From assembly GCF_964355755.1 (NCBI RefSeq), contig NC_092677.1:1679001-1743000 (forward strand): a stretch of 64,000 bases of DNA, given 5' to 3'. Both the position numbers and the translations under genes were made by a program. Each line of letters opens with the position of its first letter. The stretch's first letter is position 1. Of the stretch, positions 3,962 through 18,200 are shown piece by piece. The notes below the pieces were generated by a model that was not told where the DNA came from, did no database searches, and saw only the letters and a list, made by a program, of their open reading frames with translations. The stretch is from Antedon mediterranea (lineage: Eukaryota > Echinodermata > Crinoidea > Comatulida > Antedonidae).

Positions 3962-6797
3962 TTAGTCACGCATCAGTAAGCTAAGTTTAAAAGTATTGAA
4001 CACGAGAGTAAGCCTATCTGTTCCGTCTTTTTCTGAGACACTCTCATACAAACAAGCGAACATCCTGACCACTTCGTCTGACCCAGGGTGAAGTCTTTCA
4101 AAATAAGCTAGGTCAGAACTACCGACCCGACCATCCTTCAAAATCAAGTTTTCTTTAGACCACGTGTTGAATCCATCTTTTGACAGTTGAACAGAGAATA
4201 TTGTATCTTTTGATGATCTCATTGAGCTTGAACGAATACCCCAGGAGGGTGAGTTTGTGTTGTCTTCCAATGATGCCTTGAAGCTCACCATACCAGCCTA
4301 AAATACCGTAACGAATATTAGGCCTACAACAAACTCGTAATCTAAAATCTACGTAGGTTAGACAATTTAAAGTAGGCCTATAGTATTTACGTTCATTTCA
4401 TGATGTTACAATTATATCAAGAATGGCTAGGATCTTGCGTTTGGAAGATGCATGAATTCTGACCCTTTTACATCAGACAAGACTAATAAAACACACATTT
4501 TAAAATAAAAATGTCATTATCATATCTAACACCAAGATTTATACTACAATGTCTTCATTATTATTGTTATTGTAATGCTGTTCGATTTATAAAGCACTCA
4601 TACAATCAAAAGATTGTCCCAAAGCGCTGAGAGAAAAAACAGAAAGAAATTACAAAGAAAAAAGATGTTTTTTTTTAAAACTATGATAGAGGATGCATTT
4701 TTAATAGGGTCTTGAAGATTGTTCCACAGTTTAGGAGCTGCAACTGCAAAAGCTAGATCACTGGGTGGAACAAAAAGTGCAGATGGATTTGGTCGACCTA
4801 AGAGATCTTTTTGGAAACTAAAGATCTACGTATTAAATTGGAGATATATAATGGTGATTTGTCGTGAAGAGATTTAAATGTAATTATTACCTGTCTACCC
4901 GGAGTTTGAAAGCTTTCAAAGTTTTTCGTGTCTTGATATTGTTTGTTGCCCGGATGTAGTGACGACGCGGCCCACTCGTCAATTTCATCAGTTGTCTCAA
5001 GAGGCTGAGGAAATGTTCCGCGTCCTGAACAAATAGGACGCCATTCCATTCCGTCCTTACCACCAGTTAGAATAACAGGCGTTAATACGTCTGAAAAGGG
5101 ACAACTTTCTATCAACCAATTTTTAAGTAGCCCGGTTTTCAATGAGAGGCAACTAGACAATCAATTTTGTATTAGGCCTACTGAAATACGTATTACAAGA
5201 ACATAGTTCAATCAGTTATTATTGTAAAGATTCCCAGGATTCTAAAATACGCCTACCAGAAGCCTACTACTTTACAGTGCTAAAAACAAAGGTAGGCTGG
5301 ATAGATCGTATTCAATAATTTGGTATTTGAGAGACCTACTGTAAAACTACCAGGATTATTAAACACCCCATGTTTGTTTTGTTATTATTATTGACTGATA
5401 TTTTGCAAGCATTTATAAAGGATCAAGAGTTTCTTGTTCATTTATGTTTGTTAAATTGTTCTTACTAGTTGATTCAGTCCGAGTCAGTCTCCTGTGAGCC
5501 GAGCTTTCCAACTTAGAAGCGAATCCATTTACTATTAATGTTCCTGTGGATAATTTAATTCCGTGGCCAGTATCTGATAAGAAAATAAAATACAGAAAAT
5601 TATATTCAGGCCATACCGAAACAGAAAATTCTCTTTAATTTCCTCAAAGAAAATTAGTTTAGATTCTTAGGTCGTGTCAATGAGTTGAAGGAATTTTGCT
5701 TATTTTCTGAAATCCAGTTTCCTTGTGAGGAGACAACGTCCCAAACTATGACACTGAAATAAAGTCACCCAAATCGAACTCGTATCTTACTTTTTAGCAA
5801 TATACATTGTAAGCACACGTTTTTCTTTCTGTTGAATTATTGAAATATATGTAGAAATATGTTTGTTATATGATTCGTGGAACATTCTGGCCATACTTCA
5901 TCATCACGAACGCTGAACGTCTGCGCACTTAACAAACTTTTCCAATCAGAGCGATTACTGGTGCATAGACGTATTTATTTAGTATCTGGCCATACTTACA
6001 TAATTCAAAATGGCGCGGTGGTGGGCGTGTCAAATTCTTTCCTTTCTTCCCATTATCGTTGCTCCATGGAAAATGCTGCTTAACCTTTGACCAGGTTCTT
6101 GCACCATTTGTACTATGAGCTGAGAATAACTGCCAATCTGGTGCCCGCTGGGACCTCGTCTCACCCCCCGACGTGAACTTGTTAAAAAGAACCACAATAT
6201 GGCCGAGTCGTTCATTGACCACGATGGGGACTGGATTCTCTGGCCTACAAAACAAATCTGATGTCAATCATCTATAGCTTATAATATATCGTCTGTGTAT
6301 TAACTATATATGTATGTAGGCCTATAATACTTTTATACTGTTCGCTTCCATTGCTTAAAGTAAATTGTAAATTATATTAATTATAAGTCTGTAGGCTATA
6401 CCTGAGAGAACAGTTGCGAATCAAGTATAAAATTATGATTGCGAAAGGAAAAATGATGGAAAATACTAACAACAAAAAAATGAGAAAAAATGATGGAAAT
6501 AGTATAAGATAAAAGAGAATGACTCAGTAACTGTTCAATCATTTGTACCATGTTATACGTTTACTTCCATTTTGGTTCGTCTTCAGGTCCCCCGTGTTTT
6601 CTTCTAGATACTGGAGGTTGATCTCCTCTGAGTACACAGGCACGTGTTGCTTCTCCCATTCTATCGTACGTGAACGCACTAACCCCCTCAACGATACAAT
6701 ACTTCTTGTTTCGCTGGTTGCCGTTCTACGACGCTTTTCACAAAATGCTATTATATGGTAGCGTTCTCCTTGAATAAATGATACCAGGGCTGGCCGC
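3962..6797 (-). CDS. Sialidase-like protein, five exons, 5' end unresolved
   Basis: Five phase-matched exons: 6797-6612, 6244-6000, 5573-5466, 5090-4891 and 4297-3962 (stop at 3962-3964). They follow the order of animal NEU-type sialidases: 'RRPALV...IIAFCEKR', then 'ENPVPIV...HIVVLF', Asp-box-like 'STNGARTW', 'TGHGIKLSTGTLIV', Asp box 'SKDGFNTW', then 'SSDLAYF...MFACLYE'. Compared with NEU2 as known to me, the RIP motif is RRP, the acid/base Asp after 'AF.E.R' is missing, the catalytic Tyr of 'YSDL' is Ser, and the second and third arginines cannot be found. About 60-70 residues before SSDL are absent. Donor GTATCT at 6611 is chosen because GTAAAC at 6564 breaks frame. The first exon was not found. 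It is probably enzymatically dead and may still bind glycans. Confidence 0.7.
4555..4790 (-). repeat. Dispersed retroelement fragment (TATAAAGC / AAGCGCT type)
   Basis: The stretch has TTATTATTGTTATT, 'TTTATAAAGCACTCAT', 'CCCAAAGCGCT' and 'GTTCCACAGTTTAGGAGC'. The same order of words recurs at 6838-7140, so this is an interspersed repeat, probably a SINE/LINE-type element. It lies in the last intron of the sialidase-like gene. Confidence 0.5.
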
Positions 6798-6837
6798 CTA
6801 CCAACAAAAAAATATATTACATTCTGGTTTAAACATT

Positions 6838-7140
6838 CTGTATAATAATAACAGGATTTTTATAGCGCACATACCATTCAAGAGTGCTCAAGGCGCATTT
6901 AAAAAAATAAAAAAAAAACAATCATACAAATTCCTGACAAATAAAATACAATTTCTGTTGAGGGTCTCCATCCGTTCTCGTTCTGTCGCGGTCCCGGATC
7001 CCTATCTAGGTTAAGAAACCTCATGATTTCCATATGCCTTAATGAATAAATGTGTTTTTAATCATTTTTAAAAAGTATCAACAGTTTTGCAAAATCGTAT
7101 AGAGCTCGGTAGAACATTCCATAGACGAGGAGCATCCTAT
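6838..7140 (-). repeat. Second copy of the same dispersed repeat
   Basis: Contains 'TTTTTATAGCGCACATACC', 'GTGCTCAAGGCGC' and 'CATTCCATAGACGAGGAGC', matching the word order of the 4555-4790 copy. It lies directly upstream of the first recognised sialidase-like exon, where the missing 5' exon would be expected. Confidence 0.5.
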
Positions 7141-7240
7141 GAATACATATAGACTTATGCATCACATGAATACACTAACTATCTGACTACTACTTGCTAA
7201 ATATGCAATTTAATTTGAAATAGTTGTGTCTACATAAAGT

Positions 7241-7423
7241 AAAGCTTGGTTCCCACTAGAACGTAACGCAAGGACGTAAACGCAACGCAAGCGTTTTAAC
7301 CAATGACAAGCGAAGTTATAGACAGTTAGCAATCACAAGCGAATAAGCCATCGCTTGTGATTGGTCAATTCACTTGCGTTGCGTTACGTCCTTGCGTTGC
7401 GTCGCTAGTGGGAACTACGCTTA
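7241..7423. mobile_element. Palindromic MITE, CGTTGCGTTACGTCC family
   Basis: The ends form an imperfect inverted repeat: 'TTCCCACTAGAACGTAACGC' on the left and 'GCGTCGCTAGTGGGAACTA' on the right. The interior has inverted 'AATCACAAGCG...CGCTTGTGATT'. A near-identical copy is at 53362-53395 plus 55808-55965, where it is split by another transposon. Shorter relatives are at 46084-46216 and about 53171-53350. It has no coding capacity. Confidence 0.8.
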
Positions 7424-7615
7424 AGAGAACGACAATTTAATTGACTGCTATAATACCGAGATAACGTACCTGTATGACGTCATATTAGCTGATGATTCTC
7501 GATGATATGGAAACAATCTCACTTTAAAAAGAATACAAATTTGATTACCGAAAGTTCAATTAATCAAGTTCAAAGTATACGAAAGTATAATCAAGTATCT
7601 AACAGAATTGATTAC

Positions 7616-10600
7616 CTGGTAACGTGAGTACACTATCCCCAAACGAGGAAGTTCCGTTACTCTTTCTGATGACCTCGCATTCATAACAGCCCTCGTCACC
7701 AGAAACGGGATCTCTGATTCTTAGACGTCCTATTCCAGACGAATGTACTGCATAGAATCTGTCGCTACGACACGGCTTGTTACTGGAGACTAGAAAAACT
7801 TTAGTGCCCTGTGGAGTGATCTTGTGCCAGTTCATGTTGGAAACCGTTTCGTGTTTTGGGGTGTACCTACAGATGATATCAACACTTCTATCTTTGATTT
7901 CAAACGCGTTCACGTCGTCAACTGACACCACAATTTTTGCTGAAATGACCCGACAAAAAATCTTTAGAAACACCACGAAAACGCGCGCATAAATACTGAT
8001 ACATTTAGCACGCGTGCGCGCGCCAACTTTGTGTAGTATCATTTACTTTACAATTCTCACTCCTGAGGACGATCAAATCATATTGATCAAGACGTCGAGA
8101 AACTCAACAGTTCTTTTCAGAACTAACATACGTGGTGTACAACAAACATATCAACATTTGATTTCGCCATGCAAACCTTCAAACAATATATCATTACGAT
8201 TTCACATGACGATTTTGGACACGAACAAAAATCAAAATACTATACTTAAGCATTCATCATGAAGTGTGTTGCTAAATTATAGGACATATTGGGTTAAAGT
8301 TTCTGGTCACGTGAAACTTATTTGTAAACCTTTAATCTTAACGGTAGTCTAACTACAAACGACAAACTACTTACGAGCTACAGTAAATGTGGTGGACACC
8401 TTAGCCGTCACGAGTCCAGTCGTAAACACATAACATGTGTAGTTCCCCGAATCTTCTATTTTGACATTAGAAATGTTAAGACCACCAGATCCTTCGTTTA
8501 TAAAAGCTTTGTACTTTCCTTTAAAATAATACATATTATTCCTTCCATGCTAAACATTTCTACATTATCCTTTACGTTTTATTCCTTTTCAGCCTTATTC
8601 GATGATTACTCTAATTTATATTACTATCTAGTGTAGAGGTTAATTCGATTGAATCATGAATTAATTTGATTGTTAGGTCCTATATGTAGTTCTTACTCTA
8701 TTATTATACGAATCCAATTAACAAATCCCTTCTTCTCATTTTTATTAGAGCTCGACTTCAATGATTCTAGGCAGGTAAATGTCGAATCTTTGTCGAACCA
8801 CATACTAGTTATAACGTGTCATATTATGTGTCTACTGGTACAGTTGTGTATTTTTAACAGGCTGATTTAATATACAAAATTTAAAAACGTACCTTTATTT
8901 ATCTTCAGATTTTTAGTACAATCCAGATATCCGGGGGCTTTTCGCTTAAAAAGAGAGAGATGATAATTAAGTTGGTACAATGTGTAGGCTTAAGTATGTA
9001 TTAAGTGAGTAGGCCTATAGTAAGCATTGCAACTTTAAAAAGGAGCTAGTAACAGAAATAGTCTACTGTCGCCCAGCGGTTAGAATGATTCCACAAACAA
9101 ATATAAATACTACAAAGCATAAAATGAGGTTTTATGGTGACCAGTGGTGACCAGTGGTGACCAGTGGTGACCAGCGGTCATCAGTGGGGCAACAATGAAT
9201 GGGTTTCTTTGTCACCTTCTCTTTCTTCTCAACAGTAGCACATTTGTTAACTATGGTATAGACGGGCTCGTTGCTACTTGATGATGACGACGACGACGAC
9301 GCGGTGTTATTAGAGCACATTATCAGGCCGGTACCTCCACGTTTGAACTTCAGCGTGTTAATTTTCATCATCCGATCTTCTTTGTCATTCGTCGCCAAAC
9401 TTTCAATAAGAAATGACAAATTCATCGTGATAAGTGACACTTTTGTTTCATTCTTATACGACATAATAGTTATCGTTTTATCTGTATTTTTTTTAATCAA
9501 ATATACTCTTTTTTATTTTGTATTTATCCGGTTAAAACTTGTAGGCCTACGTGAACCTGATGAGGAACATGATCTATGTAAATACTAATGTCCAATACAT
9601 TAGGTTACTTCTGATAGGGTTGAGAGAACTAACATGAATGTATTCATGAGCATTTTATTACAGACAAATAAAAATACATTCATTGTGCTTTATATTCCAA
9701 ATAAACCATCATCACTAAATAAGTCAGGTTTCTAGTTAGTATGAGACTAATTTGTAAATAAGTAAATGATACTTTGACATTTTAAGGAATCGTTTTATCA
9801 AAAGTCAAACAAAGGAATCAGGATGCACAAAATGCGGAAATCAGAAGAAAATAACAAAACTGAAAGTCGCCAAATGGGAAAGCAAAACTTTGATTACAGT
9901 TTGTATATTACACGCGCCGAAAACGAATCAATGATACCCGCTAGAAAATGTTTACAAATATAATAAGGTAAGATAATATTCAGGGTAAAATATTCATTCC
10001 CCACTAGATTACAATTGAATTCATTAGTTTAAAGTAACTTTTCTTTTACGTCAACTATGAAAAATACTTACTCAGCGTCTTGTGACTTAACGGGTTCATC
10101 TACAAAATAAATATACAGTAGTAGCCTAACAGTACTATGATTTTACAATAATAACAAAGATGATGATGCTAACGATGATGATGGTCCCACCCTAGAATGA
10201 TGATAATGATTTGATGACAGTCAATACAATGATTATGATGATGGTGATGATTATTATGATAATGATGGTGATGATGTTATGATGATGATGACGATGATTA
10301 TGATTATGACGATGATGATGATAATGATGATAATGATGATGATGATTATGATAATGGTGTTGATGATATAAATGATGATGATAATGATGATTATGATGAT
10401 GGACATAGTGGTGAAGGATTTATCTGATGACGAGACGATGATAATGATGTCATAATCGCCTTACCGACTGAAGGACTAACATTCGCATAGGCTGCTTCAT
10501 CCTCGATAGGCCTGTAGGACATTCTGTTATCATTCGCATAGATTGCATTCTCTAAATCTACCTCATTTGTTCTGGAAATAAAATGTTAACAAATTGTAGT

Positions 10601-11571
10601 AAATACAGTATTATTCTAATTGAAACATAGAACATCGTGAGCATGTGATCGTGAGCATGTGATCGTACATTCTTTTTAAGATTAATGTTCTTACCTTCTG
10701 TTTTCCCTAGTTTCATTGATTTCTGTTTTGGAAAAAAAAATAAACTTTTTAACAGAATGCTATAAGGGTATTGGATTAAAAATTAAAAAGGACAATTATT
10801 AGGCCTATTACATTTTACTTTTCTATACTAAACGTCAACACTTGACAATATTACATTTTATTTTTCTTTAACAAAACATTACCATTATTTGAGTCGTTGA
10901 ATGGAATCTCCGCTAATATATCACCAATGGGCTTGCCGACGTCATCGGTTCGATACCACCGCATGTATGAGAAAACTTGGTTTGGTGGTGTTAACGTACA
11001 CTTGATGGTCGCATTGGAATCCTCCTCAGCTACGGTGCTTTCTAACACTAATGTGACGCCCGTATTCTTTACTTTGAATAAACCTACTCATAAAGTTGAA
11101 TTACAGAATGTGTATGAAGCGCAAGAAGGGACGAATAAGATGAAGAATGGAGGTAAAAGAGTGGATATAGAAATACAGAGTAGGCCTACTAATGTACAAA
11201 TGCGATTAGTATATTCATTGATAATGAAACGTAATTATTAGGCCTACAGATTCAAACAATTTTGTGCGACCTTAACTAATATAATAGTGTCTAGGTACTT
11301 GATTTTGTTTCTACTGACTAAAAGGCTAACAGACATATTTTTCTATAAAAAACAAAATACTACTGTACAATGTATTTTAACGCATATTTCAACAACCCAC
11401 TCACAAAGATCGAACGTAACGATACACACACCCTTTTTTCATGAGCGACAAATAAATAATTAAGTATGCATGCTTACCTTTTGTAGCGCACACTAATAAT
11501 GCAGATATAATGATGAACACGGATATGAAGACAAGAAGAACCGACGAGTAGATATCAGTACTGTAGTCCAT
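7616..11571 (-). CDS. Ig-superfamily receptor exons (multi-Ig isoform)
   Basis: Phase-matched exons 11571-11478 (hydrophobic N-terminus), 11071-10883, 8518-8375 and 7939-7616. The second and third each code half an Ig domain. Joined in frame through a glycine codon, they form a full V-like core: 'ATIKCTL', 'YMRWYR', 'NISNVKIEDSGNYTCYV'. The fourth exon is a complete V-like domain ('DIICRYT', 'MNWHKI', 'GDEGCYECEV'). All internal borders are phase 1. The first exon starts MDYSTDIY with about 18 hydrophobic residues and could serve as a signal peptide. Downstream the message may continue to the Ig exons at 1160 and 373 (also phase 1). No transmembrane exon was found for this isoform. An additional weak exon (8944-8893, 'GYLDCTKN') could replace the first Ig half. 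Confidence 0.6.
9132..11571 (-). CDS. Putative transmembrane adaptor-like protein with YxN motifs (133 aa)
   Basis: Exons 11571-11478, 10722-10695, 10571-10465, 10099-10072 and 9276-9132 join in a perfect phase chain (1, 2, 1, 2) and close at a stop at 9132-9134, giving 402 nt. The first three acceptors have good pyrimidine tracts and the donors are GTAAG-type. The product has a ten-residue N-terminus, one hydrophobic segment (residues 11-28), a juxtamembrane Cys-Ala-Thr-Lys, then a polar tail. Tyrosine motifs are 'AIYAND', 'AAYANVS' and 'PVYTIVN': two YxN sites of the Grb2-SH2 type and one ITIM-like. This layout matches vertebrate LAT/NTAL-type adaptors, by analogy only. The last acceptor, in a GTC-repeat, is the weakest. 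The first exon is shared with the Ig isoform. Confidence 0.5.
9137..9180 (-). repeat. Ten-bp tandem repeat in the adaptor 3' coding end
   Basis: Four copies of GGTGACCAGT-type units. On the minus strand they encode the last 15 or so residues of the adaptor-like product (TGHHWSP repeats) before the stop, so the C-terminal end may be length-variable. Confidence 0.7.
10144..10450. repeat. GAT/TGA-rich microsatellite
   Basis: About 300 bp of impure GATGAT/AATGAT repeats between two exons of the adaptor-like gene. Length is likely to vary between individuals. Confidence 0.9.
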
Positions 11572-12633: not shown

Positions 12634-15014
12634 TTACTTGTATTCTTTGGTAATATCCACATATTGTCCGTCTGGGCATTGGTGGTAATAATCAACTATA
12701 GGTGGCGTTTCCGTTGGGCCATACAAAACCAACGAGGACATCAGGTTATTATCTCTTTTTAAGGCAAGTTCATACAGTTCTTCAGATTCATATCTCAATT
12801 CTTCCAGTGCTTTTTGTTGCGATTTTCGCATAGAATCAATATATTTCATGTCTTCGCAGTGTTGTTCTAACTTGAACTTTGACCAGGCCTTTTGTAGCAA
12901 CGCACGTCTTTCATTCTCTTCGTACGTTATTTCTGGTAAATTTCTCTTCCTGAAATCAATATAATTTAGAGATTATACCAAAAATTATGATAATAATTTA
13001 ATGTTTAAACAAATGCAACAATCAGTTTTTAATAAACCCAAGATTGCCTAAACTACTAACATATAAAGTTAAGCTTTTTCTTAAAGAGTGCAATTGTTGA
13101 GCGATGTGATATGATAGACATATGAACACAAACAATTAACACCAAGCTTTAGTTGCGAATAACAGCTCTGTTCTGTTTGGGTTTTAAAATCCAATTAATT
13201 CTATTATAATATATTGTACCTTTTTTCTTGCGTTAGTTTTCGTTCTACGCTAAATTCTGCTATTGGTTTCAATTCAGCAGCTCCCATCTTGTTTTGAACT
13301 TTCTTTAATCTTTTTATCATACGCTGTTTTCTCATAATGTCCAACCTAGGATCAGCCCTCTTTTTTTTCTTTGGAGGTTCTGCACTATATATTCAAACAA
13401 ATTATTATTATTACTACATAAATTAAAAAACATCTGTTCAAATAAAATAATTTAATAATTATATTTTTATTTATTTAGCCCTATACTACTAATTGTCTAG
13501 AAAATATTCAGTTTTAAAAAATACAGTAAAAGTGAGGATTTATAATCTCAAAAATCTTTGTATAATTATAATGAAAAAAGTCCTATAATTCTATATATAT
13601 CCACTATACGACCCCCGGGAGAGGTGCGTCATGGGTGAGTCATTTAAAAATAATTGCTGACACAGGGGTGCGTTAAAAAACCTAGATGGTACGTCAAATC
13701 AATGACCAATGGTGTGTCAATGTCCGTCACTTTACCACTTAAAATATCATAAAAAATATGGTCACAGTGAGTCAAAATGGGTGCGTCATGGTCACCTAAA
13801 GGTAAGTCACATTATTGACGCATGGGTGCGTCATGGTATTCATAAGGTATGACGCACATCGGACAAATGACGCACCTCTCCCGGGGGTCGTATGGTGGGT
13901 CATACAATTCAATCAATCAATCAATCAAATAAACATTTATTTCTTTCATATTCATATTTGAGTAAAACATTATAATTTCTGATATTTTATATATAAATAT
14001 TTTTTTTTAGAGATACAGTATAATACAGTAAATCATAATGTATAAAAAAAGATGATTCAGTTATATAAAAAATGAAAGAGGCAAAAAAACCCAAGAAAGT
14101 ATCGATCTATTGGAAACAAAAATCCAATTAAAAACTTGTATGTTGGGAAGCCATGTAAGAAAATTATATACTTATTATATATATAATATAACTACACATA
14201 TTGACAAGTGCAATAGTCAGAACAACTATCTAGGGCCTACTACTTGCCTAGTACTACTAAAAAAGTATACTTACTTGAGAATTTGTGTAAAACGGAATGC
14301 TAAACCTCCTGTTTGTGTATGAAAATGGCTCCCAGAAAAACTTGGTAAACCATGTGCAACTCTAAATAAAACATTACGAAGTTTTTAAATTTTTGAATGG
14401 TTACGAAAATATAGATCGCCACTCCTTTTTTAAATTAGCATCTGAAGTTGGTCCAAATATCACTCGAGGCTCAACTTTTAAATTAAAGAAACCTAGATGG
14501 AACTCAACTAAACGGAATAATTTTTTTGATACTAGAGTAATTAACAACAAGTGGAACTCGCTGCCCGAATCTGTTGTCAATAATACTAAAATAGCAAGAG
14601 TGTAAATTCATTCAAAAACAAACTTGACAAATACACACACATATGAGAGAAGAGGCTCCCTACGAGTTTAAAAACTCATTGCCTCTTAACTTTACTAAAG
14701 GTAAGAATTGTTTTAATAAATTGGTTGTCGGGGGCCAATACTATCTTATTGGGACGAAACGACCTCATATTAATTGATATGATGATATGGTACATTTTCT
14801 TCCGCAAAATAGATACCGTATTGTAAATCGCCGCCTATTTACGCTAGGCCTGCCGATTGAGTATGTACTATTCTTCAATTTTACTTATCAAAACGTAATT
14901 GATTTTTATAAAATTACTTAGGTATCTTCACTTAAATAAATTCATTTGGTTGTATTTAACATTTCTACAATACCTAGCAGAATTTAGTAGGATCTTTGAA
15001 ATAAAAGATGCCAT
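12634..15014 (-). CDS. MRPL40: Mitochondrial ribosomal protein mL40
   Basis: Structural protein of the large subunit of the mitochondrial ribosome. Four exons, 15014-14974, 14361-14275, 13384-13220 and 12949-12634, total 609 nt and close in frame at 202 residues, close to the human length of 206. The N-terminus MASFISKILLNSAR is a plausible mitochondrial targeting peptide. The middle has the basic 'KKKKRADPRLD' block. The C-terminal half carries 'ITYEENERRALLQKAW', 'QQKALEELR.ESEELY', 'AIKRD'-like 'ALKRDNN', 'ETPPIVDYY' and 'DGQYVDITK', in the order known for mL40. The start lies 192 bp from the start of the divergent CCDC191-like gene, so both probably share a promoter. Intron 2 holds a MITE. 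Confidence 0.9.
13606..13893. mobile_element. MITE with CCCCCGGGAGAGGTGCGTCA termini
   Basis: About 288 bp with inverted ends 'TATACGACCCCCGGGAGAGG' and 'CCTCTCCCGGGGGTCGTAT'. The interior is rich in GTGCGTCA words in both orientations. A second copy is at 61229-61464. Non-coding, in intron 2 of MRPL40. Confidence 0.85.
14345..14645 (+). pseudogene. LINE 3'-end relic
   Basis: Translation on the plus strand gives 'RGSTFKLKKPRWNSTKRNNFF', 'VINNKWNSLPESVV' and, after a +1 frameshift near 14600, 'VNSFKNKLDKY'. This is the common C-terminal motif of non-LTR retrotransposon polymerases (RG..LKL.K, F..R..N.WNSLP..VV, N.FK..LD). The frameshift and the lack of upstream domains mark it as dead. It overlaps the antisense 5' exon of MRPL40 at its left end. 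Confidence 0.65.
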
Positions 15015-15206: not shown

Positions 15207-18200
15207 ATGTCTAATCCGAATTCTGACGTTTACAAATGGAGGCGATGGTCCTCAAAACCTTCAATTGCTCATGTATGTAATATTCCAGACCTTGTTTTTA
15301 GTGTAGGATCTGGGAGTTAATTAATCGTGGATCCTAGCTAGCTACGCTAGCTGTCTATAGGCCTGGCCCTAGGCTAGTAGGCCTAGGCCTAGCTATGCCT
15401 AGGCTAGGCCTACTACTAGCCTAGAGGCTAGGCCTAGTAGGCCTAGCCTACTACCGTAGTAGGTAGGCCTGACTAGGCTAGCTAGGCCTGCTCTACTCAC
15501 TACGGGAATCCCTCACTACTAGGCCCAGCCTAGTAGTACTAAAGTCGCCCCATCGCAAAGTCGCCCCATACAAGGTCGCCCCATTGCAAAGTTGCCCCAA
15601 CGCAAAGTCGCCCCATCGCAAAGTTGCCCACGGTTGGTTTAATTACGGTATGAAGCGGCACCATTTTAATCATATCGGTTGCGTTTGATATCGATCGCGT
15701 TGTTACTTTGGTCATTATAATGTTTATCCTACATAATTTGTGTTTTAATTTTTATTTTACAGGTTTTAATGGAGTGATGTGCTTTTAAATATCATTAAAA
15801 AATAGTTCCTTGTTTGAAAGTTCTAAAAAGATTATCCCTCATTTATAGTTTCGAAAATGTTAATTTAATATGATTTTAAAATTAGTTACCAGAGCCACAA
15901 TTACGAATCTTTCTTCAACCTACAAGTCGATACCAGCTCAGCTCAACTGTACAAATTGTTCAAATTTCGCACAACAACCCACGCAAATCTAGCCCGAGCC
16001 TATATGTAAATTTAACAATAATAAAAGAAATTGGTTAGCTTTGAAATAGTCCTAGATAAATAATTTTTCATTTTGTAATTTTACTCCTTTTTTACTTCCA
16101 TGCAGACACAAGAGAAAAGAGAAGATGACATCCAACACTGGATAAAGGCAAGCCATTTAAAGGCGAGCCATTTAAAGGCGAGCCATTTAAAGGCGAGCCA
16201 TTTAAAGGCGAGCCATTTAAAGGCGAGCCATTTAAAGGCGAGCCATTTAAAGGCGAGCCATTTAAGGCGAGCCATTTAAAGGCGAGCCATTTAAAGGCGA
16301 GCCATTTAAAGGCGAGCCATTTAAAGGCGAGCCATTTAAAGGCAACAAGCCATTTAAAGGCGAGCCATTTAAAGGCGAGCCATTTAAAGGCGAGCCATTT
16401 AAAGGCGAGCCATTTAAAGGCGAGCCATTTAAAGGCGAGCCATTTAAAGGCGAGCCATTTAAAGGCGAGCCATTTAAAGGCGAGCCATTTAAAGGCGAGC
16501 CATTTAAAGGCAAGCCATTTAAAGGCAAGCCATTTAAAGGCAAGCCATTTAAAGGCAAGCCATTTAAATTAATTTTGCAAAATATATATAATGATCAGTC
16601 CATTTTATTTGGATAGATCATTAAGGTTTAAAAAAAACTTGAATGGTGTTCCATTATTTTAACAACTTTACCCTTTAATACATACAGCTTTTGCAACTTG
16701 TTAGTAATGATTTTTAACATTAATAACTTGTAACATTAATGTTTTGTAACATTGTGTTTTAGAAAGTAGAAGCAGCATCTGATCAAGCAGCTGCTATCAC
16801 ATTTGGACAATCACAAAAGTATCCAATAAAAAGTGGTCATGGGAATGCCATGGCAACAATTGCTGCTTTACAGGATAATAATGAGGCACAAACTGAAGGT
16901 AAGTAGCATTATCGTCTTGGTAGGTACTAGTATATTCACATTGTGAGGCAGTATGCTCATTGTAGTAGTATGCTCATCTTCGGAAGTAGTGTGTTCATTA
17001 AGTAGTATGTTCAGCTTGTGAGGTAGAATATTCATCGTGTTAATGTTAGGTACAGTAGCTTCAAAGTGTTGAAAGCAACTATATAAATTCAATTTTTTTT
17101 CTATTTTCAGTTTAATTAAATTTTTTTCTCTTTAAAATGACAGCACAGGATCTTTTAAACCAATGGATGGTAGAGAAGTTAAAAATCGATGACTCAGATT
17201 TAAGGTTTGATGATGAAGAGGAGGAGTTGTTGAAAGGATGTAATGGGATAAATGAACCAAAGAAAACAGACCTAGAAACAATACTGAATGTGGACTTCAG
17301 TGAATCTAGTTTGTTTGATCCGTACGATGGTCTAAAATCTGAAGGTACGTTTATCCTTAATACAAACGGGAGAATTTACTTTTTTGTTAAACCAAAAACA
17401 CAATATGCAGTCAATATGTAGAAATACCTACAAGACATTTCGTTGACATGATTCAACAAAAAAGTAAATATTCCAGTTTGTATTGAATTTGGAACCAGAT
17501 GAACTTATTCAATGATATGATTAATATTTATTTATTCCAATTCTAGAAAAAAAATAACAAAATATCATTGTGAAAACAGAAATCAATCAATAAAATGATG
17601 TGCACATATTTACATTGAATATTTTTTTTTATTTACTGTATAATTACTATTTTATGAGTTTCAGATATATTTAATGAAATTGACAGCAGAGATGAACATG
17701 AAACGGTTCAAGGAATCTTAGAAAGCATGTTAAACCAGGAGTTTGTTGAAAAATCATTTAAAAAGCAGAACCTTGGATTGGAAAAGAAACACAAAGATCC
17801 AAAAACAACAATGCAAGCACGACAAAATCAAGTAAGTCTTTACTTAGTGAGTTATTGAGTACATGTATATTCTAGACTAGTGGTTGTACAGTACCAGTAT
17901 TCACCGTTCAAACAGTTAACACTTAAAATTTACCAAATGTCCTATTCTAAATCCTCAAATATTTATTGATTTTAGTGGAATACAGTACTTAGTAGTTAAG
18001 GGAAACATCTTTCTTACTTAAGTATGTCCTTAAGTTTCTACAGTAAAATATTATTTTGAATTTTGAAGGTCAGAGCAAATAGATTGAAAAGACGGCAAGA
18101 AAAAGAGGAAAAGCAAAAAATACTTCAAGCCAAGAAATATGCACAGTTCCAGGCAAAACAAATTGTTTTAAAGGATGAACAAGAGAAGAAAATGAAGTCT

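Follow-up and report, generated by a model that had tools for sequence, protein, structure and literature searches.

The first exon of an apparent gene for two immunoglobulin (Ig) V domains and a sialidase-like domain in the crinoid Antedon mediterranea may also serve a second, much shorter product. Judging from the sequence, we put at roughly 45% the probability that this exon (E1), together with three small exons nested in the same gene (E2-E4) and probably a fourth (E5), gives rise to a small membrane protein with a single span, alternative to the long Ig-Ig-sialidase-like product of the gene. The locus lies in a window of 64,000 nucleotides (the whole stretch of DNA analyzed; C8:1679001-1743000) from a genome of 354 Mb in 18 contigs, on a contig with large Ig-domain arrays at roughly 0.4-1.9 Mb and 4.7-5.8 Mb.

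The nested exons and their predicted product

All five exons are present: they lie on the minus strand, are bordered by GT/AG and keep the phase from one to the next. The first exon, E1 (11478..11571; MDYSTDIYSSVLLVFISVFIIISALLVCATK), supplies a membrane segment and a juxtamembrane Cys and ends in phase 1. It is followed by E2 (10695..10722; 28 nt, EINETRENR, phase 1 to 2), E3 (10465..10571; 107 nt, phase 2 to 1), E4 (10072..10099; 28 nt, DEPVKSQDA) and E5 (9132..9276, with an alternative start at 9399), which holds the stop codon. With E5 taken from 9276, the chain runs for 133 aa to the stop, and to this extent the original prediction of a 133-residue protein from five small exons of consistent phase is borne out. 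Every motif that it listed, namely a short N-terminus, a single span, a juxtamembrane Cys, two YAN and one PVYTIV, is likewise present: 10 residues stand ahead of the one strong membrane segment, one Cys lies at the inner end of the span, and the tail carries IYAN and AYAN, both encoded by E3, and PVYTIV, encoded by E5. Beginning E5 at 9399 instead gives a 174-aa product, and leaving E4 unspliced leads to an immediate stop and an 86-aa product. E5 is the weakest of the five exons and ends in a short tandem repeat. Between E3 and E4 there is also a trinucleotide microsatellite (10147-10456), for which about 100 similar stretches were reported elsewhere in the genome.

The ATG of E1 has A at -3 and G at +4, with an in-frame stop 12 nt upstream. 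Its hydrophobic segment has a helix score of -2.8, which falls within the range of the transmembrane (TM) exons of neighboring genes (-1.0 to -4.05) and away from the signal peptide of one neighbor (+1.4). The span contains no charged residue; it is flanked on its N-side by two Asp and no Lys or Arg, and on its C-side by Lys/Arg whether E1 is read into the short product or into the Ig-containing one. This distribution of charges favors an orientation with the N-terminus outside and the C-terminus inside, a layout that would fit the short product and not the Ig product. The possibility raised with the original prediction, that the hydrophobic exon is only a cleaved signal peptide, is disfavored by the helix score and the charge layout, while the LVCA|TK that follows the span, an acceptable signal-peptidase site, leaves room for cleavage.

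That E1 belongs to an Ig gene lying upstream, as one of its internal TM exons, was rejected: its ATG is preceded by the in-frame stop, the sole nearby AG is in the wrong phase, and the upstream neighbor is MRPL40. E1 is a first exon, and the Ig ectodomain that lies ahead of the TM exon in the Ig receptors of the cluster is absent. The MRPL40 gene, recognized from an exon at 12634-12972 on the minus strand (Pfam PF09812, E 2e-29), ends about 1 kb upstream of E1.

The host gene

E1 also opens a ten-exon, phase-perfect frame of 629 aa that comprises two Ig V domains and a sialidase-like domain, an apparent Ig-Ig-sialidase-like fusion gene at 3963-11571 on the minus strand; it is thus the common first exon of this frame and of the predicted short product. 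The first V-set domain is divided between Ig1a (10883..11083), which has a weak acceptor, and Ig1b (8375..8518), joined to it in phase 1, and the second occupies Ig2 (7616..7939). A link exon of 52 nt (7470..7521; RLFPYHRESSANMTSY) begins the sialidase-like domain, which continues through exons at 6797-6612, 6244-6000, 5573-5466, 5090-4891 and 4297-3963, the last with the stop codon; all of these are on the minus strand. Since the borders of the sialidase-like exons were picked for phase fit, and some of their donors are weak, this fit counts as support and not as proof.

Joined, Ig1a and Ig1b form one V domain (Pfam V-set, E 7e-10). Against two relatives encoded by single exons (C8:1562559 and C8:1658735) they align without a gap at the join, the sole gap being near the end of the domain, so that the splitting intron is particular to the host gene among the relatives inspected. 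That the split is mere insertion damage is less likely, because the halves join in phase 1, with GT-AG borders and without a gap. E2-E5 sit within this intron. The original prediction had them nested in an Ig receptor gene: the position stands, and the type of host has to be revised to a gene for two Ig domains and a sialidase-like domain in place of a plain receptor. When the DNA of the intron was searched against the genome, only its trinucleotide microsatellite recurred elsewhere; it is otherwise single-copy.

The sialidase-like part shows YRxP, Asp-box-like and GHGIKL motifs and aligns over several exons, in short stretches of 28-67% identity, with animal sialidases encoded on two other contigs (C2 and C4), from which it differs in being fused to two Ig domains. 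The domain itself has no Pfam match at E<1; the C2 relative matches Pfam BNR_2 above the cut-off, and together the relatives and this match support a sialidase identity for the host domain. Its first Arg is present (YRRP), and inspection by eye revealed neither the catalytic Asp nor the second and third Arg, in a gene model that may miss an exon. The copy may therefore be inactive. In the 9-10 kb viewed at each of the genome's other sialidases, no adjoining Ig open frame was seen.

Several further features were also recorded. An inverted duplication places two near-identical Ig receptor genes (C8:1650001-1659900 and C8:1558001-1568000) on opposite strands, at a distance of about 95 kb. An open frame of 1293 aa, made of an 18-aa tandem repeat (HVNKVCRLDALTLIIKGL), adjoins an Ig receptor gene (locus L005, 925-4803). 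A minisatellite at 16079-16616 is open in several frames on both strands, with FKGEP and FKWLA repeats, and a minus-strand open frame at 1578-1916 (CKLC...HHFILNCPALNNIR) resembles the C-terminus of a reverse transcriptase of the LINE type.

Splice strength and competing interpretations

Splice sites were scored with generic matrices that we constructed. The donor of E1 scores 7.2; E2 has an acceptor of 3.8 and a donor of 6.4, E3 of 2.3 and 4.5, and E4 of 0.3 and 1.0, and the acceptor of E5 scores -2.2 (from 9276) or -1.2 (from 9399). As the acceptors of fifteen other Ig exons span -1.0 to 5.8, the sites of E1-E4 look ordinary and that of E5 weak. The acceptor of Ig1a, at -4.1, is the lowest among 17 Ig exons, and those of Ig1a and Ig1b are the weakest measured. 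The first strong acceptor downstream of the E1 donor is that of E2. Splice-site strength thus favors, on paper, the joining of E1 to E2 over its joining to the half-exon Ig1a; both products are possible from E1, the short one being the better spliced of the two by these scores.

These values bear directly on the competing interpretation that survives best, a real possibility that we nevertheless hold to be well short of even odds. According to this, E1 serves the Ig-Ig-sialidase protein alone, as its signal peptide or type II anchor, and E2-E5, though tail-like, are not joined to it in any stable RNA; they might, for example, be the tail that a rearranged Ig receptor left stranded, or a target of rare mis-splicing. 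The phase-perfect frame of the host begins at E1, the upstream sequence yielded no alternative first exon that fits Ig1a, and YxN tails are habitual in the neighboring Ig genes, all of which this interpretation accommodates. It accords less well with the anchor-like character of E1, which is unlike the short and basic signal peptides of the neighbors, with the poor acceptors of both halves of the first Ig domain, and with the intact frames and good splice sites of E2 and E3. Upstream, no good first exon other than E1 was found for either product; a second candidate (11787-11755, MAGFVFILSIN) was rejected because its phase on exit is 0, which suits no Ig1a acceptor but a very poor one.

It is improbable, in our estimate, that E2-E5 are merely chance open frames between chance splice sites, with the adaptor an artefact of reading exons by eye. 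The weak borders of E5 and its codon score, no higher than noise, are what such an origin would lead one to expect, as is the lack of any relative of E2-E5 elsewhere in the genome. The rarity of E3 speaks against it: among 30 candidate exon frames (60-200 nt with good splice scores at their borders) in 365,800 strand-bases of real sequence, E3 is the sole one with at least two YxN, and none of 56 such frames in 1.64 Mb of dinucleotide-resampled local sequence has as many. Similarly, E1 is the only ATG-led exon with a comparably hydrophobic segment and a strong donor in the 365,800 strand-bases; since the thresholds were fixed after the exons were known, these counts serve as a guide and not as a blind test. 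Furthermore, for each of E2, E3, E4 and E5 the true frame has the best codon score of the six, a measure used for frame comparison alone as the codon-usage nulls are noisy.

A chain of E1, Ig1a and E2-E5 would keep the phase throughout and yield half an Ig domain with a YxN tail, and we regard it as very improbable, given that its V domain would be cut in half, keeping a single Cys of the disulphide pair, with no membrane span to follow, that the Ig1a acceptor is weak and that Ig1a completes a V domain with Ig1b.

Comparison with known adaptors and receptors

Transmembrane adaptors combine few extracellular residues and one span with a tyrosine-rich tail (PMC4861716). The predicted short product likewise resembles LAT, NTAL, LAX1 and GAPT in its few extracellular residues, single span and Tyr-x-Asn motifs of the Grb2 type in the tail, and it differs from them in sharing its first exon with an Ig-sialidase gene and in the absence of detected sequence homology. 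Like LAT and NTAL it has a Cys on the inner side of the membrane segment, though LAT is palmitoylated at both C26 and C29 (PMC4861716) and the candidate has a single Cys at this end; it also has only two YxN where LAT-type adaptors have several. The original prediction extended the palmitoylation cysteines to LAX, which is incorrect: LAX has Grb2 sites and no palmitoylation motif (PMC4861716), and juxtamembrane palmitoylation cysteines are consequently not universal among transmembrane adaptors.

The Pfam-A models of the LAT, NTAL and LAX families gave no match to the candidate, the only hit being a chance-level one to MAGP (E 0.05), and a PDB search with it returned no match. Short disordered tails diverge fast, and the absence of family homology is thus no argument against functional likeness. 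The proposal of an adaptor of the same design therefore holds for the layout (short N-terminus, TM-like span, YxN tail, and the E1 donor and E2 acceptor) and fails for homology to LAT, NTAL or LAX; the candidate may act in the manner of these proteins, and its membership of their families is not supported.

DAP10, DAP12 and FcR gamma pair a tiny ectodomain with a signaling tail; their signal peptide is cleaved and their span contains an acidic residue, and DAP10 has a YxN site. The candidate shares the tiny ectodomain and the signaling-type tail; its span, unlike theirs, is uncharged, and an adaptor of the DAP10/DAP12 type was rejected on this ground.

Closer at hand, the Ig receptors of the cluster share with the candidate and its host their location, a related Ig V domain, short tail exons, and tails with YxN or ITIM-like motifs. 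They differ in having an Ig ectodomain and an Ig exon leading into the TM exon, where E1 has its own ATG and no Ig before it. A comparable setting is offered by the fester co-receptors of Botryllus, clustered invertebrate Ig receptors with tyrosine motifs that feed SH2-type signaling (PMC12065747); these are ITIM/hemITAM proteins with Ig ectodomains, as opposed to the ectodomain-less candidate.

In the genome itself, searches for related sequences, run with the 175-aa translation and with E3 by itself, returned only this locus and one chance-level match. The neighboring Ig genes do have VYAN, KYVNL and VYVNV in open frames that resemble receptor tails, and the alignments of E3 with two of the neighboring Ig tails score slightly above shuffles (33 and 63 of 2000 shuffles being as good). 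The occurrence of YxN in such tail-like frames means that the adaptor tail may have begun as a receptor tail, and we prefer as a plausible origin an Ig receptor that has been deprived of its ectodomain.

Implications for signaling and evolution

We suggest that E1 would be spliced to E2 to give the short product from the first exon of the host, and that this would lie in the membrane with its N-terminus outside and its tail inside. The tail might then be phosphorylated by kinases of the Src/Syk type, whereupon the two pYAN sites could hold SH2 proteins of the Grb2/GADS type at the membrane, the short product working as a scaffold of the LAT/NTAL type close to the Ig receptors encoded in the cluster; its tail, in turn, may descend from a neighboring Ig receptor with loss of the ectodomain. 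The fuller scenario, wherein one first exon yields by alternative splicing either an Ig-Ig-sialidase-like protein or a LAT-type adaptor that arose independently of vertebrate LAT through the loss of a receptor ectodomain, is one that we consider doubtful as a whole and offer tentatively.

A scaffold of the LAT type is a gap in what is known of immunoreceptor signaling in invertebrates, where the kinases and partners of the Grb2/GADS type exist. Amphioxus has SLP-76, GADS and Itk, with no LAT found, and an unknown membrane protein has been suggested to do its job (PMC5431462); in Botryllus and other ascidians, homologs of LAT and SLP-76 were not found (PMC12065747). As no LAT is reported from either group, a proven invertebrate adaptor would matter, and E1-E5 constitute a concrete candidate for one. 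If the proposal is true, a YxN adaptor within a cluster of Ig receptors would show how such a scaffold can originate, namely from a receptor that sheds its ectodomain.
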